This document shows positions 1 through 40,754 of a stretch of 40,792 bases of DNA, piece after piece. The notes beneath the pieces were generated by a model. It had not been told where the DNA came from and ran no database searches. It worked only from the letters and a program-made list of their open reading frames with translations. Within the stretch, counting starts at the first letter, position 1. Each line of letters opens with the position of its first letter. Source of the stretch: a virus; the IMG/VR virus record IMGVR_UViG_3300045141_000101, positions 1 to 40,792 of that record; one strand, 5' to 3'. The position numbers and the translations under genes were made by a program.

Positions 1-175
1 CACAATAAGAGCATTGCACGGTTAACAGGGAACGGTATGTCTCCTTGTCCTCGCAGTGCGGACATTCAACCGTCAGAGCGACAGGCGCGTCAGGGTTTGA
101 CCCGGCAACGATGTCGCGTAATGTAACAACGTCAGATTGAAAAACCGGACGGGGAGGACAAGAATGAAGGGACAT
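1..175 (-). CDS. Zinc-ribbon N-terminus of HNH protein, partial
   Basis: The minus strand is open from an ATG at 175-173 to the window edge (58 codons plus one base). The peptide starts MSLHSCPPRPVF and carries two Cys pairs, CPHC and CSYC, 15 residues apart, which is the layout of a zinc ribbon. The reading frame continues exactly into the frame leaving the other end of the window (40792 down to 40236) with no stop. On a circular molecule this would be one 243-residue protein: zinc ribbon, then Pro/Ala linker, then HNH endonuclease. It is the first gene downstream of promoter PL. The ribosome binding site is weak (GGGG about 12 bases upstream). Function of the ribbon alone is unknown; DNA binding is the usual role. 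Confidence 0.55.
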   Translation of the reverse strand, partial: MSLHSCPPRPVFQSDVVTLRDIVAGSNPDAPVALTVECPHCEDKETYRSLLTVQCSYC

Positions 176-205
176 GGAAAAAACCCCAGAAGAATTGTCT
201 GGAGC

Positions 206-234
206 ATTCTTTCACCAACGGTGAAGTTAGTCAA
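206..234 (-). promoter_or_regulatory. Leftward early promoter PL
   Basis: Read on the minus strand: TTGACT (234-229), 17 bases, AAGAAT (211-206). The perfect 15-bp operator at 211-225 fills the spacer, so repressor binding would block polymerase. Transcription would start near 199, just before the ATG at 175, and run into the leftward operon of small genes. Confidence 0.6.
211..225. promoter_or_regulatory. Repressor operator in PL
   Basis: Perfect dyad TTCAC-caacg-GTGAA, identical in both half-sites to the operator at 761-775 between the repressor and Cro-like genes. It lies between the -35 and -10 boxes of PL. Confidence 0.7.
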
Positions 235-262
235 CCGGCAAATCGGGCCAGAGCGTTATTTT

Positions 263-277
263 TTCACCTGTACTGAA
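263..277. promoter_or_regulatory. Second PL operator
   Basis: TTCAC-ctgta-CTGAA matches the operator dyad at 9 of 10 half-site positions. It lies 52 bp (centre to centre) from the operator at 211-225, upstream of the PL -35 box, where a second repressor dimer could bind cooperatively. Confidence 0.5.
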
Positions 278-401
278 ATCCGTTGGCGGCGGGCGGATGA
301 GGCCACACCACCCTCCGCGCCACGCTTTCCCCACAAGCCGCCGGCGAATAGCCCGCCGCGACGCAAGCCATCATATAAGGAAGCGGCGGCTATCCAGCGG
401 C

Positions 402-722
402 CTAACCGCGAGCTTCAAGCTCCCGTAGCCGATCGGCGAGAGCCTGATTCTGGAAGCCCGCGCGCGAGCCAAAATAGAACCAACTCGCCGTGAACCCGAA
501 CTCTCGCACGGCTTTCCATATCGCCGTGTGGCTCGGCGGGTTCCTGTAGTTCGATATGTTCGTGAACTGCGACGAGGTCAGTCCGACCATGCTCGCGAAC
601 TTGCCCTTTGCCAGTCCGGTTGCTTCCTGAGCAAGTACGAACCGGTCGCATAACGCCTCGATGAAGGCCGTGTCGCTGGGCGGCATGACCGGCAATGTAT
701 TGCACATCCGGTGAATAATCAT
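402..722 (-). CDS. Phage repressor, XRE-type HTH (CI-like)
   Basis: A 106-residue protein with a helix-turn-helix region around residues 38-75 (KFASMVGLTSSQFTNISNYR), typical of short phage repressors. It lacks a LexA/CI-type peptidase domain, so induction would have to work by another route, such as an antirepressor. It is divergent from the Cro-like gene and flanked by six copies of a 15-bp dyad that is probably its operator. Operators at 701-715 and 723-737 overlap its own start, which suggests autoregulation. No clear Shine-Dalgarno precedes the ATG at 722; an in-frame ATG at 707 is an alternative. The repressor call rests on position, HTH and operator layout. Confidence 0.75.
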   Translation of the reverse strand: MIIHRMCNTLPVMPPSDTAFIEALCDRFVLAQEATGLAKGKFASMVGLTSSQFTNISNYRNPPSHTAIWKAVREFGFTASWFYFGSRAGFQNQALADRLRELEARG

Positions 723-775
723 TTTACAACCCGTGAAATTGATCAGGCGCTTGACGTATATTCACGTTTGGTGAA
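701..775. promoter_or_regulatory. Immunity operator cluster (three sites)
   Basis: Three dyads with the plan TTCAC-N5-GTGAA: 701-715 (TGCAC-atccg-GTGAA), 723-737 (TTTAC-aaccc-GTGAA) and 761-775 (TTCAC-gtttg-GTGAA, perfect). Centres are 22 and 38 bp apart. The last lies in the spacer of the rightward promoter. It also lies in that of a possible leftward maintenance promoter (TTGGCA at 784-779, TATACG at 760-755 on the minus strand). The first two overlap the start of the repressor gene. This is the arrangement of a bistable lysogeny switch. Confidence 0.7.
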
Positions 776-780
776 ATATG
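751..780 (+). promoter_or_regulatory. Rightward early promoter PR
   Basis: TTGACG at 751-756 is a good -35 box. The perfect operator at 761-775 follows four bases later, the same geometry as at PL. The -10 is weak: AATATG at 775-780 with an 18-base spacer. It would place the start of transcription near 787, on the second ATG of the Cro-like gene, implying a leaderless message. The -10 assignment is tentative. Confidence 0.4.
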
Positions 781-786
781 CCAATC

Positions 787-1023
787 ATGAAGCGCTCCCT
801 CGATGAAATCCTCGATGTCCTGGGCGGCGAAAGCGCCGTTGCCAGTCTGTTGGGCTGCGGCCCGTCCTCCGTCTCCAACTGGAAGTCGCGCGGTCTCCCG
901 AAGGGGCGCTGGGTCGATCTGGTCATGTTGGGCGCGGAGAAGGGCGTCCGGCCGCCGATCACTCTGGACGAGGTGCGCCAGGCAGCCGCCGAGATCGATA
1001 ACGCGTGGAGCGAACCAGCGTGA
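787..1023 (+). CDS. Cro-like HTH protein (carph-isopro type)
   Basis: A 78-residue HTH protein beginning MKRSLDEILDVLGG. The segment SAVASLLGCGPSSVSNWKSR with following RGLPKGRW resembles the short carph-isopro HTH family of alphaproteobacterial phages, often found in the Cro position. It diverges from the repressor, and the operator at 761-775 lies just upstream. An in-frame ATG at 778 exists, but it overlaps the likely -10 box. I therefore prefer the ATG at 787, probably on a leaderless transcript, since no Shine-Dalgarno is visible for either. It likely competes with the repressor for the same operators (inference from position). Confidence 0.65.
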   Translation: MKRSLDEILDVLGGESAVASLLGCGPSSVSNWKSRGLPKGRWVDLVMLGAEKGVRPPITLDEVRQAAAEIDNAWSEPA

Positions 1024-1050
1024 CAACGCGACACTAACGGAGGCGGGGAG

Positions 1051-1290
1051 ATGTGGACAGTATCATGGCAGGACTTTCGCCGTCACGCGTTCGGCGACCC
1101 GATGCCACCGATTGCACGTGAAACATTCGAAACGAAGGAGGCGGCCGACCGGCGAAAGACCGAGTTGAAATCGTCTCATGTCGTGGCCTGCGTGACGCCG
1201 CTGGTGATCCGGCGCACGCGGCGGTTTCGCAACACCCCGATCGACGGTGAGGCTGCGCGCTTCAATAAGAACTGGACGCTGGCGAAATGA
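1051..1290 (+). CDS. Small early protein of unknown function
   Basis: A 79-residue basic protein (starts MWTVSWQDFRRHAF) with a strong ribosome binding site (GGAGGCGGGGAG directly before the ATG). It is rich in Arg, Lys and Thr, with no membrane segment or Cys motif. Its stop overlaps the start of the RusA gene (ATGA at 1287-1290), so the two are translationally coupled and likely serve early DNA metabolism. I recognise no family. Confidence 0.6.
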   Translation: MWTVSWQDFRRHAFGDPMPPIARETFETKEAADRRKTELKSSHVVACVTPLVIRRTRRFRNTPIDGEAARFNKNWTLAK

Positions 1291-1754
1291 GCGAACACTG
1301 GTCGGACAGTCCGCCAGATCGCATCATTACGATGCCGCGCTGTCCTTCGCTCAACGCATTGTGGGTCCGCGCTCCCGGCAAACCGCGCGTCCGTTCGGAG
1401 GCATACCGCGACTGGGCGCGCGCCGCCGGTTGGGACGTGAAGCGCCAGCTTGTCGGTGTGCCGCCCGTGGATTGCAGATTCAACGCGCTGATTGAGGTGC
1501 CCATCACCAGGCGCGACACGGGGAACTGGGAGAAAGCCGTTATGGATTTGTGCGAGTCCGTCGGCCTCGTAACGAATGATGGAAACGCCTGCGAAATAAC
1601 CATTCGCCCCGTCGCGCGCGAGGACGTGATGGTGGCGCTGTGGGTGCTGCCAGAGATGGGCGCGGTGCGTGCCCCGGCGGCCCCACGCGCGCGGCCGGTG
1701 ATGCGGCGGCATGCTCCGAAGCGGCGGGCGCTGACATGGAAAATGCCGGCATGA
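1287..1754 (+). CDS. rusA: RusA-family Holliday junction resolvase
   Basis: A 155-residue protein. RusA enzymes cut four-way DNA junctions as dimers using three or four acidic residues. The signature is at residues 75-105: RRDTGNWEKAVMDLCE followed by TNDGNACEI, giving candidate metal ligands D77, D87 and D98. The second Asp of the E. coli DxDN motif is Gly here (DTGN), a substitution I believe is common in phage members of the family. The last 45 residues are a basic Ala/Pro/Arg tail that may bind DNA. It sits in the early operon with ATGA overlaps on both sides. In phages this enzyme resolves branched replication and recombination intermediates before packaging. Confidence 0.8.
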   Translation: MSEHWSDSPPDRIITMPRCPSLNALWVRAPGKPRVRSEAYRDWARAAGWDVKRQLVGVPPVDCRFNALIEVPITRRDTGNWEKAVMDLCESVGLVTNDGNACEITIRPVAREDVMVALWVLPEMGAVRAPAAPRARPVMRRHAPKRRALTWKMPA

Positions 1755-1912
1755 TGCACCGTATACGGCATTGGCTGATGATGGCGCCGTGCGAGGTCGT
1801 CTCGACGGTCTCCGGTGACACTGTCTGGCTCGCCACGCGCTGCGTCATTTGCGGCCGTATCACCGATAAATTCCCGGCGCGGCCAATCCCCGCCGATCAC
1901 GAGTTCCGATGA
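1751..1912 (+). CDS. Small CxxC protein
   Basis: A 53-residue protein starting at the ATG that overlaps the RusA stop (ATGA, 1751-1754). An earlier in-frame ATG at 1736 would add five residues. It carries one CVIC motif near the middle (RCVICGRIT), which could bind zinc only as a dimer or with other ligands such as the nearby His. Its stop again overlaps the next start (ATGA, 1909-1912). Function unknown; expected to be made with RusA. Confidence 0.5.
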   Translation: MMHRIRHWLMMAPCEVVSTVSGDTVWLATRCVICGRITDKFPARPIPADHEFR

Positions 1913-2310
1913 TGAACGCGCGGGAGAAGATATGGGCGTGGATCGAGGTCAACCGGCGCGATTCCGTCTTGCACGCCTCGCCGCGCCGGATCGCCGCCGC
2001 GACCGGCATTGGGCTGGAGTGGGTCCGAACCATCTTCGAAGCGTGGTGCGACGAGGGGTGCCTGACGCGCATTGAGCGTGGACGATATCGGATCGTCGAA
2101 GCGCCGAAACTGGACGGTATCACGCGGCACCCGGAATGGTCGCCCGAGGCGCGCGGGAAGCTGGCGGAGCTGTCGGCACGCGGCTTGTCGCTGCGTGAGA
2201 TGGCGCGCGAGATGAAATCGACGGTCAACGCCATCGCCGGGCAACGTAGCCGCCTGGGGCTACCAAAACGGCCGTCACCGATCCGGCGCGCGGCGGAGGG
2301 GGCGCCATGA
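1909..2310 (+). CDS. Winged-helix plus GcrA-like DNA-binding protein
   Basis: A 133-residue protein with two DNA-binding parts. Residues about 1-65 look like a winged helix (SPRRIAAATGIGLEWVRTIF, then a basic wing GRYRIVEA). Residues 77-113 (WSPEARGKLAELSARGLSLR, then RSRLGLPKR) match the N-terminal GcrA-type helix-turn-helix. GcrA is an alphaproteobacterial cell-cycle regulator that works with sigma-70 at methylated promoters. A phage copy could redirect host transcription or time replication (inference). It is coupled to its neighbours by ATGA overlaps on both sides. Confidence 0.65.
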   Translation: MMNAREKIWAWIEVNRRDSVLHASPRRIAAATGIGLEWVRTIFEAWCDEGCLTRIERGRYRIVEAPKLDGITRHPEWSPEARGKLAELSARGLSLREMAREMKSTVNAIAGQRSRLGLPKRPSPIRRAAEGAP

Positions 2311-2516
2311 CCCGGCAACTGGAATTGTTCGCGCGACGGGGTAGCGGGCCAGCCCGGTCTGGCTCCCGACCGGCCCAGGCCCCGACGAAGATCAACGCAA
2401 GATCCCCTCCCGAGCCGTTCGATTTCGCCGCCGCGATCGCCCTCGACCCGCGCGCCGTGCCTCGGCCCGACGTGCCAGTGCCGGAGTGGCTCAGGCTGCC
2501 TGAGACCGATCCGTGA
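2307..2516 (+). CDS. Small Pro-rich early protein, unknown
   Basis: A 69-residue protein whose ATG overlaps the preceding stop (ATGA, 2307-2310). It begins MTRQLELFARRGSG and is rich in Pro, Ala and Arg, with an acidic C-terminus (PVPEWLRLPETDP). It looks largely disordered. The opening MTRQLELF resembles short peptide motifs that bind sliding clamps (QLxLF type), so binding to the host DNA polymerase clamp is possible but unproven. It is the last gene of the first early block and converges with the RHH gene, overlapping it by 26 bases. Confidence 0.5.
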   Translation: MTRQLELFARRGSGPARSGSRPAQAPTKINARSPPEPFDFAAAIALDPRAVPRPDVPVPEWLRLPETDP

Positions 2517-2688
2517 CGTGCTCCCGCCCCTTGCGTGACCGCCGCTGTTCCACGGCATCGAGGATCAGACCCTCGATCCAGGCCGACAGCGTACGGCGTT
2601 CAACGGCGGCGATTCGCTCCGCCTCGCTTTTCACGTTGGGCGTCGTCCGCATCAGGATATTTGCCGTTCGCCGCTCAGAAACCATCAT
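2491..2688 (-). CDS. Ribbon-helix-helix-type regulator
   Basis: A protein of about 65 residues. After a short tail it has a strand-helix-helix plan (ANILMRTTPNVKSEAERIAA, then RTLSAWIEGLILDAVEQRR) like Arc/CopG-type repressors. It is divergent from the replication block and its 5' end lies on the promoter at 2697-2725, so it may control that promoter and itself (inference). The ATG at 2688 has CAGGT five bases upstream and is preferred. An upstream ATG at 2703 in the same frame would lie inside the promoter. Confidence 0.55.
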   Translation of the reverse strand: MMVSERRTANILMRTTPNVKSEAERIAAVERRTLSAWIEGLILDAVEQRRSRKGREHVTDRSQAA

Positions 2689-2696
2689 ACACCTGA

Positions 2697-2725
2697 TTGA
2701 CATTGTATCTACTCACTTGTATAAA
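2697..2725 (+). promoter_or_regulatory. Sigma-70 promoter of replication block
   Basis: TTGACA at 2697-2702, 17-base spacer, TATAAA at 2720-2725: near-consensus and the best promoter in the window. The hexamer TTGTAT occurs twice here (2703-2708 and 2717-2722), 14 bp apart. It could be the target of the divergent RHH protein. Confidence 0.7.
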
Positions 2726-2757
2726 CAACCGCTATCGCAATGTCAAGGAACCCACAC

Positions 2758-3297
2758 ATGAACGAAATCCGCCCGCCATCTGGCATGAGGATAGAGCAGG
2801 CCATGGCAACGTGGATGTCCGCGCGCCAGCGACTGCTCGAAGACGATCCTTCCCTCGAACATGACGAGGCCGCTCTCAGCGAGATCCTCGGGCCGGTCGA
2901 GGGCGACGTGAACGACATCCTGGCCCGCGTGCTGCGCGCGAAAGTCCACGCCGAAGCGATGGCGAAAGCAGCCAGCGAACAGGCGGATCTGATCGTGGCC
3001 CGCAAACGCCGATACCTCGCGCGCGAGAACGCCATGAAGGGGCTCGCTTTCGCGCTGATGGAAACGCTCAACAAACGGAAGGTCGAACTCGGCGATCTTA
3101 CCGCGAGTATCGTCGCCGGCCGCGCGGGCGTGTTCATCACGGACCTCGCCAAAGTGCCTGATATCTACGTCGAAGTGATTCCCGAGGAACGCAAGCCCGA
3201 CAAACTGGTGATGCTGGCCGATCTCCAGGCAGGCAAGACCATCGAGGGCGCCGAACTCGGCAACGGTCTCGACTACCTGATGATCCGGAAGGGCTGA
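2758..3297 (+). CDS. Gp157-type phage protein
   Basis: A 179-residue protein that resembles the siphovirus Gp157 family, found next to single-strand annealing proteins in many phages. Residues about 20-110 are mostly helical with a coiled-coil look (DVNDILARVLRAKVHAEAMA). The C-terminal half is a compact beta region (DLAKVPDIYVEVIPEERKPD). The start at 2758 is chosen because AAGGA lies nine bases upstream; an in-frame ATG at 2740 lacks a site. It is the first gene behind the strong promoter at 2697-2725 and directly precedes the RecT-like gene. Family members are thought to act in DNA replication or protection, but the exact role is not established. Confidence 0.65.
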   Translation: MNEIRPPSGMRIEQAMATWMSARQRLLEDDPSLEHDEAALSEILGPVEGDVNDILARVLRAKVHAEAMAKAASEQADLIVARKRRYLARENAMKGLAFALMETLNKRKVELGDLTASIVAGRAGVFITDLAKVPDIYVEVIPEERKPDKLVMLADLQAGKTIEGAELGNGLDYLMIRKG

Positions 3298-3300
3298 CCC

Positions 3301-4221
3301 ATGAACGCCATCGCCAAAACCAATCCGGCCACCGCCGGCCTGCGCCCCCAGTCGTTCGCGGATCTCGTCCAGTTCGCCAATCTCGCGGCGAAGTCCTCCA
3401 TGGTCCCGCCAGCCTACAAAGGCCAACCGGAGTCCATCGTCCTCGCCGTCCAGATGGGCGACGAACTGGGCCTGGCGCCAATGCAGTCGCTCCAGAACAT
3501 CAGCGTCATCAACGGCCGCCCCGCCGTCTGGGGTGACGCCGTCCTCGGCCTCTGCCGCCAGTCCGCCGTGTGCAAGGATATCGTCGAGACCGTGACCGGC
3601 GAGGGCGAGCGCATGGTCGCCACATGCACCGCGATCCGGGTCGGATCCGAGCCTGTCGTGCGCTCGTTCTCCGTTGAGGATGCCAAGAAGGCCGGACTGT
3701 GGGGCAAGAGCGGGCCGTGGCAGCAATACCCGAAGCGGATGCTCCAGATGCGAGCGCGCGGCTTCGCGGTGCGGGATGCCTTCCCCGACGTGCTGCGCGG
3801 CCTGATCACCGCCGAGGAAGCTGCCGACATCCCCGCCCGCGACACCTTCGCCGGACCAACAATCGAACACACCGCCGCTCCTGTGGCGTCGACCATACCA
3901 AATCAGGTGGCCGAGCAGGGGGTAACCGGGGCAATCCCAACCATCGACCACCCCAGGAAAAAGACCGTGGCCGCATGGCTCGACGCGCTGGCGCTGGAAC
4001 TGGCCGCCTGCGAGGGGGGCGAGGAAGTGGACGCGATACTGGCGAGAGAGGATGTGCAGCAGGCACAGGACAGGCTCCGCAACGGCGCCGCCGACCGGCT
4101 CAACCACATGATCCAGACCGCCATCGCGCGCACCGCCGCCACCGAGACTTCCGCGCCGGAGGATGACGGACTGTATGCCGATCCGGCGAGCGATCCATTT
4201 CGTGAGACGGCGCCGGCGTGA
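3301..4221 (+). CDS. RecT-like single-strand annealing protein
   Basis: A 306-residue protein. The core at residues 15-185 (SFADLVQFANLAAKSSMVPP, VQMGDELGLAPMQSLQNISV, NGRPAVWGDAVLGL) matches the RecT-type annealing family. The C-terminal third is a variable acidic tail. These proteins coat single-stranded DNA and pair homologous strands, serving phage recombination and concatemer formation. It follows the Gp157-type gene by three bases, so the two are one unit. A partner exonuclease is not evident next door; the PD-(D/E)XK-like protein at 6283-7095 is a candidate. Confidence 0.7.
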   Translation: MNAIAKTNPATAGLRPQSFADLVQFANLAAKSSMVPPAYKGQPESIVLAVQMGDELGLAPMQSLQNISVINGRPAVWGDAVLGLCRQSAVCKDIVETVTGEGERMVATCTAIRVGSEPVVRSFSVEDAKKAGLWGKSGPWQQYPKRMLQMRARGFAVRDAFPDVLRGLITAEEAADIPARDTFAGPTIEHTAAPVASTIPNQVAEQGVTGAIPTIDHPRKKTVAAWLDALALELAACEGGEEVDAILAREDVQQAQDRLRNGAADRLNHMIQTAIARTAATETSAPEDDGLYADPASDPFRETAPA

Positions 4222-4250
4222 ACACACCACCAGACCCGGAGTGAGAGGCG

Positions 4251-4589
4251 GTGGATGGGGGCGGACCCCCAGGCCGCTTCGCCGCCGATTTCCGGCGTCT
4301 CGTCACCCCGATCCTGACGCGGGAGATCACCCGACTCGCGCCCGACGTGGCAGACGGCCGCCTGTCGTTCTCCGAGGCCATGGCCGAACTGATGCGCATG
4401 GCCTGGCGCCGAGGGGCCGGATACCTCCCAGAGCCGCTTCAGGAGGAGCTACAGGACTGGATCGCCTCGACCCTGCTGGATGAGGCGTGCCTGATCGAGG
4501 AGGCCGAGGCGCTACTCCAGAGTCTGCTACGCGAGCCGTCCCGCGACGTGATGCGATCCGCCATTCGGAAGTTCATCGATGATGGTTGA
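4251..4589 (+). CDS. Small early protein, unknown
   Basis: A 112-residue acidic, helical protein beginning at GTG 4251 behind GGAGTGAGAGGCG. Residues 15-100 form amphipathic helices (ITRLAPDVADGRLSFSEAMA, EELQDWIASTLLDEACLIEE). It overlaps the helicase gene by 11 bases, which suggests coupling and a role near replication. I recognise no family. Confidence 0.55.
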   Translation: MDGGGPPGRFAADFRRLVTPILTREITRLAPDVADGRLSFSEAMAELMRMAWRRGAGYLPEPLQEELQDWIASTLLDEACLIEEAEALLQSLLREPSRDVMRSAIRKFIDDG

Positions 4590-6054
4590 CGAGCCGCCGC
4601 CCAACTTCTTCGCCCGCGCTCCGAAGCCCCGGCGAAAAGCCAAGGCGCCGGCGCCAGAGGTCGTGCCCGTTCAATACGTAAACGGGGAGGACAAACTTGT
4701 CCTCATCATGCCGCCTGATTGCACCGACGATGCGATCGGGCTGCGCTTCAGCGCCGAGTTTGGCGGCGTCCTGCGATACGTCGCCGACTGGAACCGCTGG
4801 ATGCTCTGGGACGGCCGGGTCTGGCGCCGGGACAACACGCTCCGCGTCTATGACCTGATCCGCAAAACCATCCGCGCGATCGGCCCCGAGGCGCCCGACG
4901 AGCGGGTCCGCGCCAAATTGGCCGCCGCGTCCACCGTCGCCGCGATCGAGAAGCTCGTCCGCTCCGACCGCCGCCACGCGCTGGCCGCCGATGCCTGGGA
5001 CGCCGACCCTTGGCTGCTCAACACACCCGGCGGCGTCGTGAACCTCGAAACCGGCGAGACCGGGCCGCACGACCCGACATACCTGATGACGAAATGCACT
5101 GGCGTGGCCCCCGCCACAGTCGCCGACTGTCCGCGTTGGATGCGCTTCCTGGAACGCGTCACCGGCAACGATCCCCTGTTGGAAGCATACCTCAAACGGG
5201 TTGCCGGGTATTGGCTGACAGGCCTGACCCGCGAACACGCCATGTGGTTCCTCTATGGCACCGGGCGCAACGGCAAGGGCGTTTTCCTGAACACCATTAC
5301 GCGCATCATGGGCGACTATGCCCTGACCGCCTCACCCGACACGTTCACAGCGGACGGCCACGGCAAGCACCTTACCGTCCTCGCCCGCCTGCAAGGCGCA
5401 CGGCTCGTGGTGTCGCAGGAAACCGAGGAGGGCGTGCCATGGGCCGAGGCACGCATTAAAGCCGTGACCGGTGGTGACCCCATCACAGCCAACTTCATGC
5501 GGCAAGATCCGTTTACATACCTGCCCCAGTTCAAACTTGGCATGTCAGGCAATCACAAACCAACCCTGAAGTCCGTCGATGAGGCGATCCGCGCCCGCTT
5601 CAACCTCGTCCCCTTCCTGGTGACCATCCCTCTCGGCGAACGCGACCCGAAATTGCCGGAACTGCTGTGGGAGGAAGCGCCGGGGATTCTGGCGTGGATG
5701 CTGGAGGGGTGCTGGGACTGGCGGCATGCGCGGCTGCGCCCGCCAGCGATCGTGACCGACGCCACCAAGGTCTATTTCGATGAGGAAGACGCCACCTCGC
5801 TCTGGCTCGCGGACTGCTGCGATACCAGCGACCCACGGGCCAAAGCGTCCAGCTCGCTGATGTTCGAATGCTGGTCGTGGTGGGCGGTCGGACAAGGCGA
5901 AAGAGCCGGTACACAGAAAGCATTCAGCCGAACCATGGAACGCCATGGCTTTGAAAAGAAACGAGAACCTGATGGCGTGAAATTCCTGTGCATCAAGTTG
6001 GCCAAGGCAGCGTCCCCATTCTGGAATCATAAGGGAAATGAGCAGGAACAATGA
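4579..6054 (+). CDS. D5-type SF3 replicative helicase (primase-helicase)
   Basis: A 491-residue protein. Residues about 60-200 form a D5_N-like region, and 215-430 an SF3 helicase domain. The Walker A is GTGRNGKG at 227-234, and a Walker B-like stretch is RLVVSQETEEG from about 275. Motif C/sensor FKLGMSGNHKP is at 319-328 and Arg-rich residues lie around 338-340. The C-terminal part is winged-helix-like (WSWWAVGQGERAGTQKAFSR). The N-terminus is short and shows no archaeo-eukaryotic primase domain, so this is the helicase half. Related phage and plasmid proteins unwind DNA at the origin as ring hexamers. A large inverted repeat lies just downstream and could be its target. Confidence 0.85.
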   Translation: MMVDEPPPNFFARAPKPRRKAKAPAPEVVPVQYVNGEDKLVLIMPPDCTDDAIGLRFSAEFGGVLRYVADWNRWMLWDGRVWRRDNTLRVYDLIRKTIRAIGPEAPDERVRAKLAAASTVAAIEKLVRSDRRHALAADAWDADPWLLNTPGGVVNLETGETGPHDPTYLMTKCTGVAPATVADCPRWMRFLERVTGNDPLLEAYLKRVAGYWLTGLTREHAMWFLYGTGRNGKGVFLNTITRIMGDYALTASPDTFTADGHGKHLTVLARLQGARLVVSQETEEGVPWAEARIKAVTGGDPITANFMRQDPFTYLPQFKLGMSGNHKPTLKSVDEAIRARFNLVPFLVTIPLGERDPKLPELLWEEAPGILAWMLEGCWDWRHARLRPPAIVTDATKVYFDEEDATSLWLADCCDTSDPRAKASSSLMFECWSWWAVGQGERAGTQKAFSRTMERHGFEKKREPDGVKFLCIKLAKAASPFWNHKGNEQEQ

Positions 6055-6085
6055 GTTATCAAGAAATGCGGTCCGGTTATTATTT

Positions 6086-6268
6086 ATCAAAAGTCAACCA
6101 TGTAGGGTTGTGCAGGGTTTTGCATTTCACACGTAGGGCCGCGCGCGGAGGCGCGGGCGGGCGGGCGTGACCCCGCATCCCTTCATACCCTGCATTAAGT
6201 ATAATACGCGCGCGTGCGCGCAGACCCACGTGTGAAATGGGAAACCCTACACAACCCTACATTTTGAT
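6086..6268. repeat. Large imperfect inverted repeat, candidate origin
   Basis: Left arm 6086-6134 (ATCAAAA ... CATTTCACACGT) and right arm 6228-6268 (ACGTGTGAAATG ... TTTTGAT) are near-perfect reverse complements over about 40 bp. The left arm carries an extra 8 bases. The left arm also holds AGGGTT units at 6104-6109 and 6114-6119, one helical turn apart. The central 93 bp are very GC-rich with alternating CG (about 6204-6221). It lies between the helicase and a nuclease gene with no ORF inside. An origin with iterons or a replication terminus are the best guesses; a regulatory hairpin is the alternative. Confidence 0.55.
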
Positions 6269-6282
6269 AAAAGGAAAACGAG

Positions 6283-7095
6283 ATGGCCGACGTTAAAGAC
6301 CCCTCCGCGATCATCCTCCCGTTCGGTAAGCACAAGGGAAAGACAGTCGCGGAACTGCTCGTAACCGATCCCGCCTATGCCGACTGGGTGACCGCCCAGG
6401 CCTGGGTCGCGGAACGCTTCGCTGAACTCCACGCCGCGATCCTGACACGCGGTGCCGGCCTGGAAGACACGCCGGAACACAACGCCATCCAGGCTCGCTT
6501 CCTCGATGAGCGGTTTTGCCTCGCGCTGATCCAAATAACGTCCGCCGCGCAAATCACCGCCGCCCGCGCCCATTGCCTGAGATACGAAACGTACGACCTC
6601 CGGGCGGAAACAGGAAAAGCCCGGAGCAGACTTGAGCGCGTCCGCTTTAATATCGAATGGAAGACGGGACAGCCTCCGGGACATGGAAAATATCACACGA
6701 GCACGCTCGAAGAAGATGAAGCGGAGGCAAAGACGTTAACGAGCCGGATAGCCACGCTGGAACAGCAGATCCAGGATTGGCGGTTCGAGGAATGGCCCTC
6801 GAAAACCAGCGTGGATTTCGAATGCCGTGGCGTCGATGTGAGACTGGACGCCCGTTTCCAGAAAGGCGGAGAGCACTTCAATATCGATGTCCTGGGCGTG
6901 GAAATCAAACCGTCCGTCGGTGACGATTATCCCTCGGTCATGCGTCAGATGAAACGGCTCGGCGCCGGGACCCTGGTCGCCGGCACATGGACCGGGCGCG
7001 GCGTTTCCGAACCCCAGATGCGCGCCATGTTCGAGGCCAGCGGCATCAAGGTCGTCTTCATCCAGGAGATCGAGGAGCGGATGCGCCTGCCATGA
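6283..7095 (+). CDS. DUF3820-like plus PD-(D/E)XK-like nuclease
   Basis: A 270-residue protein with RBS AAGGA at 6271-6275. Residues 8-35 (ILPFGKHKGKTVAELLVTDP) match the short fold seen in DUF3820/exonuclease X C-terminal regions, known as a DNA-end binding module. The C-terminal half holds DARFQKGGEHFNIDVLGVEI followed by KPSVGDDYPSVMRQM. Here D...EIK plus a downstream Q resembles a PD-(D/E)XK nuclease core. A middle helical linker (about 125-165) joins them. The likely role is a recombination or repair exonuclease partnering the RecT-like protein (inference). The nuclease assignment is by motif only. Confidence 0.55.
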   Translation: MADVKDPSAIILPFGKHKGKTVAELLVTDPAYADWVTAQAWVAERFAELHAAILTRGAGLEDTPEHNAIQARFLDERFCLALIQITSAAQITAARAHCLRYETYDLRAETGKARSRLERVRFNIEWKTGQPPGHGKYHTSTLEEDEAEAKTLTSRIATLEQQIQDWRFEEWPSKTSVDFECRGVDVRLDARFQKGGEHFNIDVLGVEIKPSVGDDYPSVMRQMKRLGAGTLVAGTWTGRGVSEPQMRAMFEASGIKVVFIQEIEERMRLP

Positions 7096-7105
7096 GACAC
7101 AAAAA

Positions 7106-7137
7106 AACCGCCGCCTGTAGGGGGAAGGGCGGCGGTT
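7106..7137 (-). terminator. Leftward intrinsic terminator, copy 1
   Basis: AACCGCCGCC (7106-7115) pairs perfectly with GGCGGCGGTT (7128-7137). On the minus strand the hairpin is followed by seven U (the A-run at 7101-7107), giving a textbook rho-independent terminator. On the plus strand no U-run follows, so rightward transcripts should pass. Nearly identical to the hairpin at 8158-8191. Confidence 0.7.
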
Positions 7138-7174
7138 CAGTTGACGTGCCGGATTTCCGAGGGGAGGAACCACG

Positions 7175-8152
7175 ATGCGATCCACCGAGGCGCCAACGCC
7201 TGAAATCGACGCACACGATATCCAACCGTGGATAGGGGCCACGATGGGGGGCATACGTGATGCCGCCCTGGCCTGTAATGTCATTATCCCAGGTCTTCCT
7301 GATCAGGCGGACAAGATGCCAACGCACGGCGAGGTCGTGATAATCGCCGAAATGGCCCGCTCAGCCATCAGAACCGGGCGCGCGATCGACTTTGGGCACA
7401 TCCCAAACAACGTTATCGTCGATGGCGGTATGCGTGGCGCGTCACTCTACGACCAGGGAGCCTTTCCACAACCGTTCGAGGCGCCATGGCTGTTCGTTCA
7501 TACCTGGGACCACGGTGGTCATCGCATGTTATGCGCATATCTGGTCAATCCGCTACGCGACCAACGTGGCGCCGACGCGGGATGCGAGGTGGTCGAACTG
7601 CAACCCGCCATCCTCGGGCGGATGCGCGTGCTGGTGATCGCCGATCGCGCTTTGCTTTACCCACCCAGGGGCGAACCCCTGGCACCAAACGAGTACGCCG
7701 CCGAGATCGTGCCGAACGCCTACCGGCTCATGCCGGACTTCGCCGACATACTCAATGACGGTAAATCTCCCGAGGCGGCCGCCGCCGGAAATGTCCTCGA
7801 CCCCCTGATGTCAGCTTTGATGCTGCTCAATACCGATGGTGTTCCGAGGATCACGATCACCCCCTCCGAGAAACTGAACAAAGCTCGGGTGAAGTCCGGA
7901 AAGCCTCCAATACCCCCACATGAGATCGTGGATTCAAGGCTCTACGTGACCGTCATCTCAGACCGGAAGGAAGGGCGAACGGGAACCCACGGAGGCCACC
8001 ATGCTTCACCAACACCGCATATCCGCCGTGGGCATTTTCGCACCCTCGCCAGCGGCACCCGGTCGTTCATCCGTGAAACGCTCGTGCGCGCGACGCCCGA
8101 GGCGCGGGAGTCGTTCCTCTCTCGACGCTCGCATTACGAAGTACGGGCCTGA
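7175..8152 (+). CDS. Conserved phage protein, unknown function
   Basis: A 325-residue protein with a strong RBS (GAGGGGAGGAA). It shows no enzyme motif I recognise. The C-terminal 50 residues (HHASPTPHIRRGHFRTLASG, then a basic stretch) resemble a recurring C-terminal block of unknown phage proteins in early or DNA-metabolism regions. The middle is hydrophobic beta structure (RMRVLVIADRALLYPP). It is the last rightward early gene, lies between two copies of the same leftward terminator and ends exactly at the second. Confidence 0.6.
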   Translation: MRSTEAPTPEIDAHDIQPWIGATMGGIRDAALACNVIIPGLPDQADKMPTHGEVVIIAEMARSAIRTGRAIDFGHIPNNVIVDGGMRGASLYDQGAFPQPFEAPWLFVHTWDHGGHRMLCAYLVNPLRDQRGADAGCEVVELQPAILGRMRVLVIADRALLYPPRGEPLAPNEYAAEIVPNAYRLMPDFADILNDGKSPEAAAAGNVLDPLMSALMLLNTDGVPRITITPSEKLNKARVKSGKPPIPPHEIVDSRLYVTVISDRKEGRTGTHGGHHASPTPHIRRGHFRTLASGTRSFIRETLVRATPEARESFLSRRSHYEVRA

Positions 8153-8157
8153 AAAAA

Positions 8158-8191
8158 ACCGCCGCCTGTAGGGGGAAGGACGGCGGCGGTC
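8158..8191 (-). terminator. Leftward intrinsic terminator, copy 2
   Basis: ACCGCCGCC (8159-8167) pairs with GGCGGCGGT (8183-8191), and the minus-strand transcript ends in a U-run (A7 at 8153-8159). It closes the leftward operon 8984-8241. The hairpin and loop (TGTAGGGGGAAGG) match copy 1 at 7106-7137 almost base for base. Confidence 0.75.
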
Positions 8192-8240
8192 GGAGTGGAT
8201 CGTGGTGATAGTCGCGAGGCGTCCCCGCGACGGAGGCAGA

Positions 8241-8468
8241 TTAGCGCCGCATCTCCCCCGCCCGCCAGACCCGCCAGTCGTCCGGCGCCGGGTGCAGCTC
8301 GTGCCAGTCCCAGGCCGAGACCAGCCACCGCGCCAGCGGGAGAGGCACCGGAGCGGTTCCACGCGCCCACCGGGTGGGTAGCCCACTGTCACACCGCAGA
8401 CGCCGTGCGAGCTCTCGGTGGCTCCAGCCGAGGGCGGTCATGGCGGCGCTGAACTCGGCGGGGGTCAC
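8241..8468 (-). CDS. Small HTH protein
   Basis: A 75-residue protein starting at GTG 8468 behind GAGGGAG. Residues 3-35 (AEFSAAMTALGWSHRELARR, then WARGTAPVP) fit a XRE-like helix-turn-helix of the kind found in short phage regulators. The rest is Trp-rich (WHELHPAPDDWRVW). Its start overlaps the preceding stop (ATGA-type, 8465-8468). It may regulate the divergent late promoter or its own operon; the target is unknown. Confidence 0.6.
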   Translation of the reverse strand: MTPAEFSAAMTALGWSHRELARRLRCDSGLPTRWARGTAPVPLPLARWLVSAWDWHELHPAPDDWRVWRAGEMRR

Positions 8469-8683
8469 GGCCCGCTCCCTCGCTCCAGATCGTCCAGCCG
8501 ATCTTCCACCGAGCGCATTCGCCGACCCATCACCAGCGCATCCCCGATCAGGAATCCCTTGGTGTTCGCGAAGTCATTTTGTAACGCGGTGACCACATTG
8601 ATCAGGCGCTCATGCTGATTGTTCATCCGTGCCATCAACCGGGCTTCCATGGCCACCAGGAAGGCCTTGGTCTCGTCGTCCAT
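8465..8683 (-). CDS. Small coiled-coil protein
   Basis: A 72-residue, mostly helical protein (MDDETKAFLVAMEARLMARM ...) with heptad-like spacing in both halves and an acidic C-terminus (SVEDRLDDLERGSGP). RBS GGGAGAGA. It overlaps the HTH gene by four bases. No family recognised; a partner or dimerisation role is possible. Confidence 0.55.
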   Translation of the reverse strand: MDDETKAFLVAMEARLMARMNNQHERLINVVTALQNDFANTKGFLIGDALVMGRRMRSVEDRLDDLERGSGP

Positions 8684-8741
8684 CGTATGTCTCTCCCGCT
8701 GAAATGAAGGTGGGGGCGGGGCACGAGGCCCCGCCGGAGGG

Positions 8742-8984
8742 TCAGGCGGCCAGTAGCTGCCGGATGTAAGCCAGAGCGTAGGGGCGACTGGTGAAGTGGC
8801 CTTGAAGCGCGCCCGGTAGCGTATTCACCCGGCGCGTGTCGTTCCGGTGCCACATCCGCAGGCCAATCCCGAACGTGCCTTTCTGGGTTCTGAATGTGGT
8901 GAACTCGAAAGCGTGGCCGTTGGCGCGAAGCTTGCCGATGCGGTCGATGTTGGCGGCGTCCTGAATTTCGCTTTTGGTCTTCAT
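8742..8984 (-). CDS. Small protein, first gene of leftward operon
   Basis: An 80-residue protein with strong RBS AAGGAG. It has a beta-rich middle (AFEFTTFRTQKGTFGIGLRM) and a helical end. No known family. It is transcribed from the leftward promoter at 9011-9039 and diverges from the NusG-like late gene. Confidence 0.6.
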   Translation of the reverse strand: MKTKSEIQDAANIDRIGKLRANGHAFEFTTFRTQKGTFGIGLRMWHRNDTRRVNTLPGALQGHFTSRPYALAYIRQLLAA

Positions 8985-9010
8985 GTCCGTGTCTCCTTGT
9001 TGATAAAGAC

Positions 9011-9039
9011 ACCATACAGCGCGATATGCAGATAGTCAA
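9011..9039 (-). promoter_or_regulatory. Promoter of leftward operon 8984-8241
   Basis: On the minus strand: TTGACT (9039-9034), 17 bases, TATGGT (9016-9011). It places transcription start near 9004, just upstream of the RBS AAGGAG and ATG 8984. Confidence 0.5.
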
Positions 9040-9092
9040 CGACAAAATGCGGACAGATGCGATTTATTTTCCGGCAGCATTCCTGCCCCATC

Positions 9093-9107
9093 TTGACCAT
9101 CGGTGAA
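9093..9107. promoter_or_regulatory. Repressor operator before late antiterminator
   Basis: TTGAC-catcg-GTGAA matches the phage operator at 9 of 10 half-site positions. It shares the longer string CGGTGAATAATC with the operator at 701-715. It lies 22 bp upstream of the NusG-like gene. No clear -35/-10 pair could be fixed here, although AATAAT at 9106-9111 could be a -10. Confidence 0.55.
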
Positions 9108-9128
9108 TAATCTGGACACAACTCACGC

Positions 9129-9671
9129 GTGGAAACCGAGAGCGCATTGCTACTCGACTGCGGACGCGACACCGAAGCGATCCAATGGGCGGTGGTGCAT
9201 ACTCACCCCGGGGCCGAGGACTGGGCCTCAGTCTCGCTTAATCGTGCTGGCTACGAAACATATCTCCCGCTCTACGCGAAGTTGATCGGCACACCGCGCC
9301 GCATCGTCTACCGACCCCTGTTCCCCAGCTATCTCTTCCTCGCCCTGTCCTCATCGCGAGGCTGGGTCGCCGCTCGATATGCGGAGGGGGTCCATAAACT
9401 GTGCATGTCGGCCGGCCGCCCGAACCGCGTCCGTGGCGGGGCTGTCGAAGCGTTGCGGGCGACCGAGGAAGACCGCCGCTCGTTACCACCCGCCAGCGAC
9501 ACATGGCGCCCAGGAGCCCCGTGCAGGCTTGCCAATGGCAGTCCTTTGGACGGGATCAACGCCGTGGTGAAGTCCGTCTCCGGCGACAGCGCACGCGTGC
9601 ATGTCCTGATGTTCGGGGAACTGCGCGAGGTCGTTGTGAAGGCGGAATGCCTAACGGAACGCAAGGACTGA
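9129..9671 (+). CDS. NusG/RfaH-type antiterminator
   Basis: A 180-residue protein starting at GTG 9129. Residues about 18-105 form the NGN domain (WAVVHTHPGAEDWASVSLNR, then YRPLFPSYLFLAL). Residues 125-178 form a KOW domain (GAPCRLANGSPLDGINAVVK ... ELREVVVKAECL). NusG paralogues ride on RNA polymerase and make it resist pausing and termination. As the first gene of the 28-kb late operon, and with a repressor operator just upstream, it is well placed to be the late-gene activator. It would replace a lambda Q-type protein (inference from position and family). Confidence 0.8.
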   Translation: METESALLLDCGRDTEAIQWAVVHTHPGAEDWASVSLNRAGYETYLPLYAKLIGTPRRIVYRPLFPSYLFLALSSSRGWVAARYAEGVHKLCMSAGRPNRVRGGAVEALRATEEDRRSLPPASDTWRPGAPCRLANGSPLDGINAVVKSVSGDSARVHVLMFGELREVVVKAECLTERKD

Positions 9672-9675
9672 GCGC

Positions 9676-9966
9676 GTGGCGGCCCGGCTGTTGAAACGAA
9701 ATGACGATATGTCGCGAGCCGCGATACAAACTACCCAGCTCGTAAAACGCTTAAATACCTTCGCATTAGGCCAAAATGATCCCTGCTACCCGGACAAAAA
9801 GCTCGAAATGTCCTCTGATCAGGTGCGCGCTGCTCTCGGCCTGCTGCGGAAAACCATCCCGGATCTGGCCGTGACATCGCATACCGGCCCGGATGGCGGC
9901 CCCGTCCTCATAGTCACAGGCGTCGATCGCGGCGAAATCAGTGGCAACGAGACCATCAAAGATTGA
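9676..9966 (+). CDS. Probable terminase small subunit
   Basis: A 96-residue protein starting at GTG 9676 with AAGGA nine bases upstream; ATG 9709 is an alternative. Residues 18-66 (TTQLVKRLNTFALGQNDPCY, then MSSDQVRAALGLLRKTIPDL) form helices like those of small terminase-type proteins found just before TerL in related phages. It overlaps terL by 26 bases. Small terminases recognise packaging sites and regulate TerL. The call rests mainly on position and this short similarity. Confidence 0.6.
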   Translation: MAARLLKRNDDMSRAAIQTTQLVKRLNTFALGQNDPCYPDKKLEMSSDQVRAALGLLRKTIPDLAVTSHTGPDGGPVLIVTGVDRGEISGNETIKD

Positions 9967-11266
9967 GCTTGGCTATACTGCGCGTTCGCAGTTCGCCGCG
10001 TTCCATGCGCGTAAACAGCGTTGGGCCTGTCTCGTCGTCCATCGCCGCGCCGGCAAGACCGTCGCCTGTGTGATGGATCTCATCGACGCAGCCCTGCGCT
10101 GCAAGAAACCTGACGGACGCTTTGCTTATTTGGCGCCAACCTACGCGCAATCCAAGGACACGGCCTGGTCGTACCTGAAGCGTTTCACCGCTGACATCCC
10201 AGGTGTTGAGCAACGCGAGAGCGACCTTATGGTACTGTTCCCGAACGGCAGCCGCGTTCGTCTGTACGGCGCTGAGAACTACGACCGGCTGCGCGGCACC
10301 TTCGCTGACGGCGTCGTGCTCGATGAATACGGCGATATTGATCCTCGTGCGTGGCCCGAGGTCATCCGACCATCGCTCGCCGACCGTAATGGTTGGGCGG
10401 TGTTCATCGGCACGCCGAAGGGTCGCAACGACTTTTATGCCATCCACAAGGAAGCCCAGGATAATCCATTATGGTTCTCGATGGTATTGCGGGCATCCCA
10501 GAGCGGACTGTTGCCTCAGTCCGAACTGGACGACATGCGGCGTACTTTAACCGCTGATCAGTATGATCAAGAGCTGGAGGTAAGTTTCGACGCCGCAATC
10601 CGTGGCTCGATCTATCGTTCCGAGATGGCGGCGCTGGACGCTGACGGGCGGCTGTGCGGCGTGCCATACGATCCGGCGGTGCCAGTGTGGACCGCCTGGG
10701 ATCTCGGCATAGGCGATGCCACGGCGATCGTCTGCGCGCAGCTCGTGGGCCGTGAGGTGCATATCATCGACTATTACGAGGCCACCGGCGAACCGCTGAC
10801 GCATTACGTGCAATGGCTCGACAGCAAGCCGTATCGATACACTACCGATTTGTTGCCGCATGATGCTGGCGCGCGCGAGTTGGGCACCGGCAAGACGCGT
10901 GAGGAGTTGCTACGCGCCAACGGTCGCAAGGTGCGCGTGGTGCCCCGACAGGATGTGGATGACGGGATCAACGCAGTTAAAATGCTGTTGCCGCGATGCT
11001 GGATGGATCGTGTTCGTACGGAGCGATTGAGGGAGTGCATGGTTTACTACCATCGTGACTTCAACGACCGCCTCGGTGTGTTCAAGGACGCGCCGATCCA
11101 TGATTGGTCGTCACATTGTTGCGATGCCGTTCGGACCTTGGCGATGGGGTTGAAGGAAGCGCGGCCCGACACCGGCCTCGACATCGTCGCGGCGCAGCGC
11201 GCGTCGTTCTCGCGCGGTCAGTGGGTCGAGGGTGTCAGGACCAGCACGGGGTGGATGGGGATTTGA
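9941..11266 (+). CDS. terL: Terminase large subunit
   Basis: A 441-residue packaging motor. The ATPase domain has Walker A HRRAGKT (residues 34-40), Walker B VVLDEYGD (125-132) and coupling motif IGTPKGR (156-162). The RNase H-like nuclease domain starts with WDLGIGD (D254) and ends with the acidic set near DWSSHCCDA (about 405). The start is GTG 9941, inside the preceding gene. TerL pumps DNA into the prohead through the portal (17159-19372) and cuts the concatemer. With a P22-like head, headful packaging is expected (inference). Confidence 0.93.
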   Translation: MATRPSKIELGYTARSQFAAFHARKQRWACLVVHRRAGKTVACVMDLIDAALRCKKPDGRFAYLAPTYAQSKDTAWSYLKRFTADIPGVEQRESDLMVLFPNGSRVRLYGAENYDRLRGTFADGVVLDEYGDIDPRAWPEVIRPSLADRNGWAVFIGTPKGRNDFYAIHKEAQDNPLWFSMVLRASQSGLLPQSELDDMRRTLTADQYDQELEVSFDAAIRGSIYRSEMAALDADGRLCGVPYDPAVPVWTAWDLGIGDATAIVCAQLVGREVHIIDYYEATGEPLTHYVQWLDSKPYRYTTDLLPHDAGARELGTGKTREELLRANGRKVRVVPRQDVDDGINAVKMLLPRCWMDRVRTERLRECMVYYHRDFNDRLGVFKDAPIHDWSSHCCDAVRTLAMGLKEARPDTGLDIVAAQRASFSRGQWVEGVRTSTGWMGI

Positions 11267-22060: not shown

Positions 22061-23170
22061 CGACAATACGACGACAGCTTCGCGCAAAGCGGTGCCAAGA
22101 TCGGCAGCACGCTCCGCATCCGCCTGCCGGTGCAATACACCGTCAGCACGACGCCCGCGCTGTCGTTGCAGAACACGGTTGAAACCCAGATCAGCCTACC
22201 GATCACCAATCAGTATCACGTGGACTTCAGCTTCTCCTCGGCTGAACTCACGCTGTCGATTGACGACTTCACAGCGCGCTACATCGAGCCAGCCATCGCG
22301 GTTCTCGCGGCCCAGATCGAGGCGGCGGTCATCGGCATGATGTGGCCGACCGTATGGAACCAGGTCGGCACGCCGGGTGTCGCGCAGTCGTTCAAGAACG
22401 TCCTCGTCGCCCGCAAGATGCTGCTCGACAACCTGACGCCGCAAAGCAAGCAGTGGCAGCTTCGCATCAACACACAGGACAACGTGGACCTCGTGGACAG
22501 CCTCAAGGGCCTGTTCCAACAGAGCACGCAAATCGCGCGGCAATACACCGATGGCGTCATGGGCCTCGCGGGCGGCTTCGAATGGGCCGAGAACACCCAC
22601 CTGACCACGCAAACGCGCGGCGCCGAGAACGCGGCTTACACGACGGCGATCGTGCTCAATCAGAACACGGGCGCCACCCTCGCCGTGATCACCGGAGCCG
22701 GCGCGGGCAACGCGGGCGACGTGTTCACCATCGCCGGCGTCTACCGCGTGCATCCCGAAACCAAAGCCAACTCGGGTGTGCTCCAGCAGTTCGTTCTGAC
22801 CGGCGCTTACGCGGGCGGCGGCGGCAACATGGCGATCGCGCCGGCCATCAACGCCGTGGTTGGCAGCCCGCAACAGAACGTCGCCATCCCCGTGGCCAAC
22901 GCGACGGCGGGGTTGACGTTCATGGGAACGGCGAGCGCGGCGACCGGGCTGAGCCTCGCGTACAATCCAGACGCTTTTACGTTCGCCACAGCCGATCTTG
23001 TCATGCCCGGCGGGGTCGATATGGCTTCACGCGTGGTAAAGGACGGTATCTCGATGAGGGCAGTGCGTCAATATAGTATATCAGACGATACAATGCCAAT
23101 AAGGATTGATGTGTTGTGGGGAGCCGTGGCCTTAAGGCCACAACTCGCAGTCAGGCTCGCTGCGAATTAG
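22061..23170 (+). CDS. Major coat protein, exon 2 (P22 gp5-like)
   Basis: Encodes residues 33-401 of the coat protein after splicing. It contains the typical P22 coat-family blocks RQYDDSFAQSGAKIGSTLRI, ELTLSIDDFTARYIEPAIAV and VDSLKGLFQQSTQIARQYTD. It ends with a beta-rich C-terminal region (ISMRAVRQYSISDDTMPIRI). The protein would have the HK97 fold with an inserted domain and form the icosahedral shell with the scaffold (20232-21002). Without the intron one would call a truncated gene from GTG 22130; the 23 codons before that are clearly coding. Confidence 0.88.
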   Translation, partial: RQYDDSFAQSGAKIGSTLRIRLPVQYTVSTTPALSLQNTVETQISLPITNQYHVDFSFSSAELTLSIDDFTARYIEPAIAVLAAQIEAAVIGMMWPTVWNQVGTPGVAQSFKNVLVARKMLLDNLTPQSKQWQLRINTQDNVDLVDSLKGLFQQSTQIARQYTDGVMGLAGGFEWAENTHLTTQTRGAENAAYTTAIVLNQNTGATLAVITGAGAGNAGDVFTIAGVYRVHPETKANSGVLQQFVLTGAYAGGGGNMAIAPAINAVVGSPQQNVAIPVANATAGLTFMGTASAATGLSLAYNPDAFTFATADLVMPGGVDMASRVVKDGISMRAVRQYSISDDTMPIRIDVLWGAVALRPQLAVRLAAN

Positions 23171-39979: not shown

Positions 39980-40236
39980 GGGCGATCCTCCGCCATGCTC
40001 AGCGCGTCCGCCTTCTGCTCAGCCGCGCACGTCGCGCACAGAGCGAGGCTCTGGAACCACTCAGTCGCCTCGGGGTTCGGGCAGCAGTCGCAGCATAGGA
40101 AGGTGTGGCCGGTGGCGTCACAAAGCTCGCACGGGCCGGCATCCCACACGTCGGGATCGTTGCCGCCGTAACGCGAAATAAAAATCGAACCCTCTCCAGC
40201 ACACGATGTGCAAATGATTGTCAGCGGCTTGCTCAT
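39976..40236 (-). CDS. DnaJ-like Cys-rich zinc protein
   Basis: An 86-residue protein from ATG 40236 (RBS GGAGG nine bases upstream; an in-frame ATG at 40251 lies in the HNH gene). It has CTSCAGEG and CELCDATGH, the CxxCxGxG plan of DnaJ zinc modules, then CCDCC and CATC. Up to two zinc sites. It may act as a chaperone mimic or nucleic-acid binder. Its ATG uses the last base of the HNH stop (TAATG). Confidence 0.6.
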   Translation of the reverse strand: MSKPLTIICTSCAGEGSIFISRYGGNDPDVWDAGPCELCDATGHTFLCCDCCPNPEATEWFQSLALCATCAAEQKADALSMAEDRP

Positions 40237-40754
40237 TAGATGTGCCTCCAAGTCTTTCTGGTCTTGATGGAGCGAATGGTTCGTCGCGCCACGCCATATT
40301 CTTTTGCGAGTACACTTTGGCTGCGGTGATCTAATCTGATCGCCATCACGTTTTCTTCAGTAAGTTTGGCGTTGGGCTGCTTCGTGCCAACGAGGCTACG
40401 GCCACGGGTTACCATGTCCATGGAGTTGTCGGCTTTGGAGCCCGCCAGTAAATGTTCTGGGTTGCAGCATGGAGGGTTATCGCAAGAGTGACGAACGACT
40501 TGCTTGTTAATAAGGACGCCGCTGGATAGGACAAACGCGACCTGATGCGCTTGAGCCTTTTTCCCACGAACGGAAGTCACGCCATATCCGTTACCATCCA
40601 GTGGCCCTACCCACGGCCAACATTCATCTTCGTGCCCCCGATTTTCCACTGAACTCCAAAAGGCATCGATCCTCTCCGGATGAAGAGTGGGAGCCAGAGG
40701 AACAAGACGATGGTTCTGCCCGGACGGCGGCAAAGCTGGTGCTTTAGCAACCAA
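40236..40754 (-). CDS. HNH homing endonuclease, 5' end open
   Basis: At least 172 residues. The HNH_3 domain is at about 42-115 (CWPWVGPLDGNGYGVTSVRG, VVRHSCDNPPCCNPEHLLAG), with the helix-turn-helix and family end KEYGVARRTIRSIKTRKTWR-HI. The first possible start in the window is TTG 40754, but the frame stays open to 40792. It then matches the frame entering at base 1 (RQYCCQSHKSA upstream joining ...CSYC). On a circle the protein would be 243 residues with an N-terminal zinc ribbon. It heads the leftward operon behind PL. Confidence 0.75.
   Translation of the reverse strand: MVAKAPALPPSGQNHRLVPLAPTLHPERIDAFWSSVENRGHEDECWPWVGPLDGNGYGVTSVRGKKAQAHQVAFVLSSGVLINKQVVRHSCDNPPCCNPEHLLAGSKADNSMDMVTRGRSLVGTKQPNAKLTEENVMAIRLDHRSQSVLAKEYGVARRTIRSIKTRKTWRHI

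Follow-up and report, generated by a model that had tools for sequence, protein, structure and literature searches.

In lambdoid phages and P22, as at the locus described here, the immunity region comprises divergent repressor and Cro genes with palindromic operators located inside the PL and PR spacers and close to the promoter of the repressor. Operator exchange between relatives is textbook heteroimmunity, brought about by exchange of the immunity region. Cluster A mycobacteriophages, such as L5 and Bxb1, share other traits with this locus, namely one repressor with many sites, and heteroimmune relatives with a different operator consensus. They have up to ~30 dispersed operators and stoperators, which are spread genome-wide, lie mainly in one orientation, and halt elongation (PMC6550527). 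Specialised antiterminators of the NusG/RfaH type (phrog_6386, RfaH, UpxY, and LoaP) resemble a gene of this locus in domain content and in occupying the first place of an operon.

The DNA analysed here, referred to below as the window, is an IMG/VR virus record of 40,792 bases that is classed as linear. A first-pass annotation had listed six TTCAC-N5-GTGAA sites, beginning at 211, 263, 701, 723, 761, and 9093, and all six were confirmed (Table 1). The copies at 211 and 761 are perfect palindromes, and those at 263, 701, 723, and 9093 carry one mismatch each. Altogether, eight matches with at most one mismatch occur in the window (two perfect and six with one mismatch), compared with a mean of 0.9 (sd 1.0, maximum 4) in 300 order-1 Markov sequences; the two that had not been listed, at 23026 and 32595, both lie within long ORFs. 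Five sites are packed into 570 bp, and the largest cluster in the 300 simulations contained two. When two mismatches were allowed, 13 matches were found vs. 12.3 by chance, indicating that the operator signal is confined to the strong sites.

The sites were also scored with a position matrix over 17-mers, which was derived solely from immunity sites in four relatives (L015, L016, L018, and L019), with the window excluded, and was made symmetric. This matrix ranked the six sites first to sixth in the window, at 761 (23.2 bits), 211 (21.6), 9093 (18.7), 263 (17.8), 701 (14.4), and 723 (14.0), and the best scores below them were 12.4 and 12.2 bits. Scores as good as that of 9093 are expected 0.03 times per window by chance. 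Equal-scoring sites inside genes, which would have spoken against the operator proposal, were absent from the whole-window scan, and the matrix ranking together with the simulations ruled out pure chance as the origin of the six sites.

Table 1. Positions of the operators, promoters, and genes discussed in the text, in window coordinates.
Feature	Position	Strand	Details
PL	206..234	-	-35 TTGACT 234-229, 17 bp, -10 AAGAAT 211-206; 9 of 12 matches
OL1 TTCACCAACGGTGAA	211..225		in the spacer of leftward PL; homologous site in L015-L019
OL2 TTCACCTGTACTGAA	263..277		upstream of PL; homologous second site in L015, L017, L018
Short repressor, 94 aa HTH protein	402..686	-	start by comparison with L015/L019; ~62% identity to repressors of relatives
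Operator TGCACATCCGGTGAA (OR3-like)	701..715		15 bp upstream of repressor start; homologous in L015, L016, L018, L019
Operator TTTACAACCCGTGAA (OR2-like)	723..737		relatives keep only the right half GTGAAATT
PR	751..779	+	-35 TTGACG 751-756, 17 bp, -10 AAATAT 774-779; same layout in relatives
OR1 TTCACGTTTGGTGAA	761..775		in PR spacer; homologous site in relatives
Cro-like protein (carph-isopro / P22_Cro-like HTH)	787..1023	+	start ATG 787; predicted leaderless from PR by geometry
Leftward promoter of small ORF 8742-8984	9011..9039	-	TTGACT-17-TATGGT; promoter scan
Second palindrome GGCAG-CATTC-CTGCC	9073..9087		just upstream of late -35; alignment
Late/antiterminator promoter (proposed)	9093..9121	+	-35 TTGACC 9093-9098, 17 bp, weak -10 ACACAA 9116-9121, 7 nt to GTG 9129
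Sixth site TTGACCATCGGTGAA	9093..9107		left arm = -35 of antiterminator promoter
NusG/RfaH-family antiterminator	9129..9671	+	first gene before terminase; phrog_6386 E 4e-17, Pfam NusG 1.7e-9, TIGR01955 2.5e-15
Large terminase subunit	9941..11266	+	phrog_2 E 3e-35

The left end of the window has divergent repressor and Cro-like HTH genes and repeated palindromic operators within the PL and PR promoters, both as in lambda and P22. Perfect copies had been placed between the -35 and -10 elements of PL and PR, and this held at both promoters, with 211-225 in the PL spacer and 761-775 in the PR spacer. The repressor had been taken to be a 106-residue protein (ORF 402-722), a start that proved too far upstream. 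Because L019 has an in-frame stop ahead of the Met that matches codon 13 of this ORF, and L015 has no ATG earlier than the one matching ATG 686 of the window, ATG 686 is almost certainly the start codon of the repressor, giving a protein of 94 aa. Sites 701-715 and 723-737 are non-coding, since the repressor starts at 686. The AlphaFold model of the repressor (pLDDT 90) is all-helical; Foldseek E-values were weak, with none below 0.001, and the DNA-binding core of the model aligned to P22 c2 (target TM 0.80, rmsd 1.8) and to the 434 repressor. The Cro-like protein scored 35.4 bits against carph-isopro, just under the 38-bit cut-off, and matched P22_Cro with an E-value of 0.00014.

Five phage contigs (L015-L019) encode counterparts of these proteins, with Cro 76-85% and the repressor ~62% identical to those of the window. 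Palindromes occur at homologous places in these contigs: PL has one or two, and single copies precede the repressor gene and occupy the PR spacer; at the middle site (723) just the GTGAAATT half is retained, and the PR of L015-L018 carries a TTGAC operator variant. The presence of homologous sites in relatives with the same repressor and Cro supported the proposal that PL and PR share a single short HTH repressor and a single type of operator. Judged from sequence, the first five sites are the putative operators of an immunity region of the lambda/P22 kind, with the repressor as their presumed binder. In addition, a small rightward ORF at 137-493 (ATG 163) extends from the PL leader across the OL operators towards the repressor gene; its ribosome-binding site is good, and its start motifs (MKGHGKN or HDxLRVxGG) recur in the homologous leaders of L007, L012, L015, and L189. 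A candidate intrinsic terminator directly after PL (205-183) was set aside, as its 5' arm starts upstream of the likely transcription start.

Among the relatives, the operator sequence was found to switch together with the repressor. GTCGT-N5-ACGAC palindromes occur at four places in G003/L007 in a layout similar to that of the window, ATGGC-N5-GCCAT palindromes were found in G006, G013, G016, G017, L186, and L193, and TGCAG-N5-CTGCA palindromes in G014 and G015. The TTCAC type is common outside this group, with at least 120 viral stretches containing TTGAC-N3-6-TTCAC-N5-GTGAA; among the matches listed, about 20 loci hold clusters of at least three TTCAC sites. In this uncultured phage family, similar layouts thus carry interchangeable operators of at least four types (TTCAC, GTCGT, ATGGC, and TGCAG), which can be read from sequence and would predict mutual exclusion between phages. 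Both ends of the G006 record (1-1000 and 40400-41376) carry the immunity region, in versions that differ slightly, suggesting a circle left unresolved or a mixture of strains.

The sixth site lies far from this cluster, immediately before the antiterminator gene. The N-terminal NusG domain of the encoded protein was recognised by Pfam (38.5 bits vs. a cut-off of 22.2), and its score against TIGR01955, the family of RfaH proper, was 56.8 bits vs. a curated cut-off of 144.5; its structure model had a pLDDT of 40 and was set aside. A NusG search in isolate genomes returned only distant paralogues with 24-40% identity, mostly from Alphaproteobacteria. The left arm of 9093-9107 falls on the proposed -35, and its register to the promoter is 10 bp off vs. 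the PR operator. The proposed -10 is poor, and a consensus scan misses this promoter. The path from PR to the Cro start, in the window and in relatives, and that from the late promoter to GTG 9129 have the same spacing (TTGAC, 17 bp, hexamer, 7 nt, and start codon), a geometry that suggests leaderless transcripts at both promoters.

When the window was aligned with ten relatives, the stretch between TTGAC and the start codon proved nearly invariant except in L013. In that relative, whose antiterminator is 66% identical, CTTGAC and the start region are kept and GTGAA is lost, with GGGTGTCAAAA replacing ATCGGTGAAAA; the element is absent from the homologues L104-L106 (52-56%). The palindrome just upstream of the late -35 reads GGCGG/CCGCT in L011, with one compensating (covarying) pair. 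The leftward promoter near 9035 resembles PL in its upstream part (9026-9070 vs. 221-262), with a local alignment score above all 500 shuffles. We also considered whether the late upstream region is homologous to the leader next to PL in ATGGC-type phages; local alignment p values ran from ~0.002 to 0.4 depending on the pair, which was unconvincing, and the strongest match in that comparison joined the regions upstream of the leftward promoter near 9035 and of PL.

The sequence TTGACCATCGGTGAA is found, letter for letter, before the antiterminator gene of G003, which has GTCGT operators, and of G006 and G017, which have ATGGC operators. The motif common to the GTCGT- and ATGGC-type relatives is TTGACC-AWC-GGTGAA. 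An operator of their own type was not found at the late promoters of these three relatives, where the best matches within ~360 bp had 3, 3, and 2 mismatches, respectively. Because G003, G006, and G017 share the site and have no own-type operator there, the late site does not track the immunity type. Direct control of the late operon would have the late site change with the immunity operator, and this was not observed.

Other TTCAC-type phages were also surveyed. In four of them (G031, G032, G040, and G027; 32-50 kb), TTCAC sites occur only in the immunity cluster, whereas G025, G026, G028, G029, G034, G035, and G036 also have sites outside it. Extra sites were present in G030 and G038 as well; in this partial survey, extra sites were read individually in these two records, and those inspected overlap ORFs, with none at a late promoter. 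In the closer relatives G009, G011, and G012, sites lie in the immunity region only. Many sites dispersed outside the immunity region, as in stoperator-like repressor systems, were not seen, as the window has one such site and G031, G032, G040, and G027 have none. Among the phages compared, the window phage alone has both TTCAC immunity and this late module, and a test restricted to its immunity type is therefore limited to one genome.

The first-pass annotation had proposed that the repressor controls the late operon directly. Under that design, the repressor would occupy all six operators, including the one over the antiterminator -35, and shut the early and late operons directly, and heteroimmune relatives would have kept the late sequence only as a promoter after losing the TTCAC repressor through immunity exchange. 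The six sites are the top six matrix matches with the late one third, TTGAC-type operators exist at the PR of relatives, and a protein positioned over the -35 would block RNA polymerase, all of which favour such control. However, the identity of the site in the three heteroimmune relatives does not support it; moreover, four TTCAC-type records lack any site outside the immunity region, and the distant L013 loses GTGAA and retains the -35. We therefore regard direct late control as unlikely, if still a serious competitor. Occupancy of 9093-9107 by the repressor in the window phage itself is plausible because of the third-ranked matrix score and the TTGAC variant at the PR of L015-L018; since the site is constant across immunity types, repressor binding is probably not what maintains it.

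A different explanation starts from TTCAC palindromes found beside PL in heteroimmune phages. Perfect copies of TTCAC-N5-GTGAA adjoin PL in the ATGGC-type G006, G013, G016, and G017 and in the TGCAG-type G014 and G015, and no perfect copies across types were found for the other three operator types. The loci recorded for such PL-adjacent perfect palindromes in ATGGC- or TGCAG-type phages are L012:128, L187:8616, L191:9058, L112:4780, and L193:1080, and L189:7700, L192:8886, and L188:1601. A separate factor, be it a protein of host or phage or an RNA element in the leader, might recognise TTCACC-like palindromes at the late promoter and beside PL regardless of immunity type, with TTCAC immunity overlapping by happenstance. 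In the ATGGC set, the palindrome lies within an invariant leader block of ~35 nt, which fits such a factor. The contexts differ, however: the palindrome of the ATGGC type belongs to the leader of the small rightward ORF, at a distance of ~95 bp from the first operator, whereas in the TGCAG type it adjoins the second operator inside that ORF. Moreover, no candidate binder was found, the palindrome is absent from the G003 PL and from L186, and conservation among the TGCAG sequences says little, because those compared hardly differ around the site. A separate factor is thus improbable. A relic of former TTCAC immunity, a second regulator, or a coding constraint (peptide FFT..E) could each explain part of the PL-adjacent palindromes. 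We give very little credence to the idea that TTCAC-N5-GTGAA is a cross-phage signal through which an outside factor, such as a host protein or the repressor encoded by a TTCAC-type prophage in the same cell, holds the early leader and late operon of a heteroimmune phage.

The reading that we prefer, with a probability of about 60%, is that the first five sites are immunity operators and the sixth is a part of the late promoter that resembles them, with no maintained link from repressor to late operon. Counting against it are the third rank of the late site in a matrix built without it, the TTGAC variant at the PR of L015-L018, the single genome available within the same immunity type, the poor -10 and the missed consensus scan, and the PL-adjacent TTCAC palindromes, which it leaves unaccounted for. 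The positions of the sites, their statistics, the exchange of operator type among relatives, and the constancy of the late site are observed, and from them we infer the binders, the transcription starts, and the direction of regulation. The 94-residue repressor and the Cro-like protein would bind TTCAC-N5-GTGAA within both promoter spacers (PL and PR) and also ahead of PL and of the repressor gene. The repressor at OL1/OL2 and at the OR sites would close PL and PR and with them both early operons, operator binding may also tune expression of the repressor itself, and Cro would compete with the repressor for the same sites. In a lysogen, the late genes would be off mainly by relay, since late transcription depends on earlier events (early lytic functions) that are themselves shut off. 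The NusG/RfaH-like gene at the start of the late operon would have a leaderless promoter whose -35 and adjoining spacer make up the sixth site. The site resembles a TTCAC operator and would owe its conservation to something other than immunity type (the promoter or another factor). This promoter would be recognised via its conserved -35 and probably set by something else, for which GGCAG-N5-CTGCC (9073-9087) is a candidate. A single outlying operator match can thus mimic a regulatory link until relatives of another immunity type are compared.

Several other features of the window were recorded. The early gene at 1909-2310 has a GcrA-like C-terminal match of 26.6 bits (cut-off 26.9) behind a RepL/winged-helix-like region, and an HNH endonuclease gene lies at 40236-40754 in the leftward operon (phrog_1872, E 1.6e-29). 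Tyrosine integrase and serine recombinase families had no match in the whole window; the close relative G003 has a tyrosine integrase (C1:29826-30251). A DNA search of a phage database with window positions 1-10000 gave no match, and Rfam and tRNA scans returned nothing.

Compared with the described systems, the antiterminator differs from RfaH, UpxY, and NusG in being phage-encoded and in scoring under the curated cut-offs for all three. In contrast to Cluster A phages, five of the six sites in the window are clustered and one lies outside. Unlike the lambdoid phages and P22, the window encodes a bare HTH repressor of 94 aa that lacks a LexA-like cleavage domain, and it has two OL sites rather than three and a different operator sequence. 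The likeness to P22 extends to the regulators, as the Cro of the window is related to the P22_Cro/carph-isopro HTH families and the predicted repressor structure aligns to the DNA-binding domains of P22 c2 and 434.
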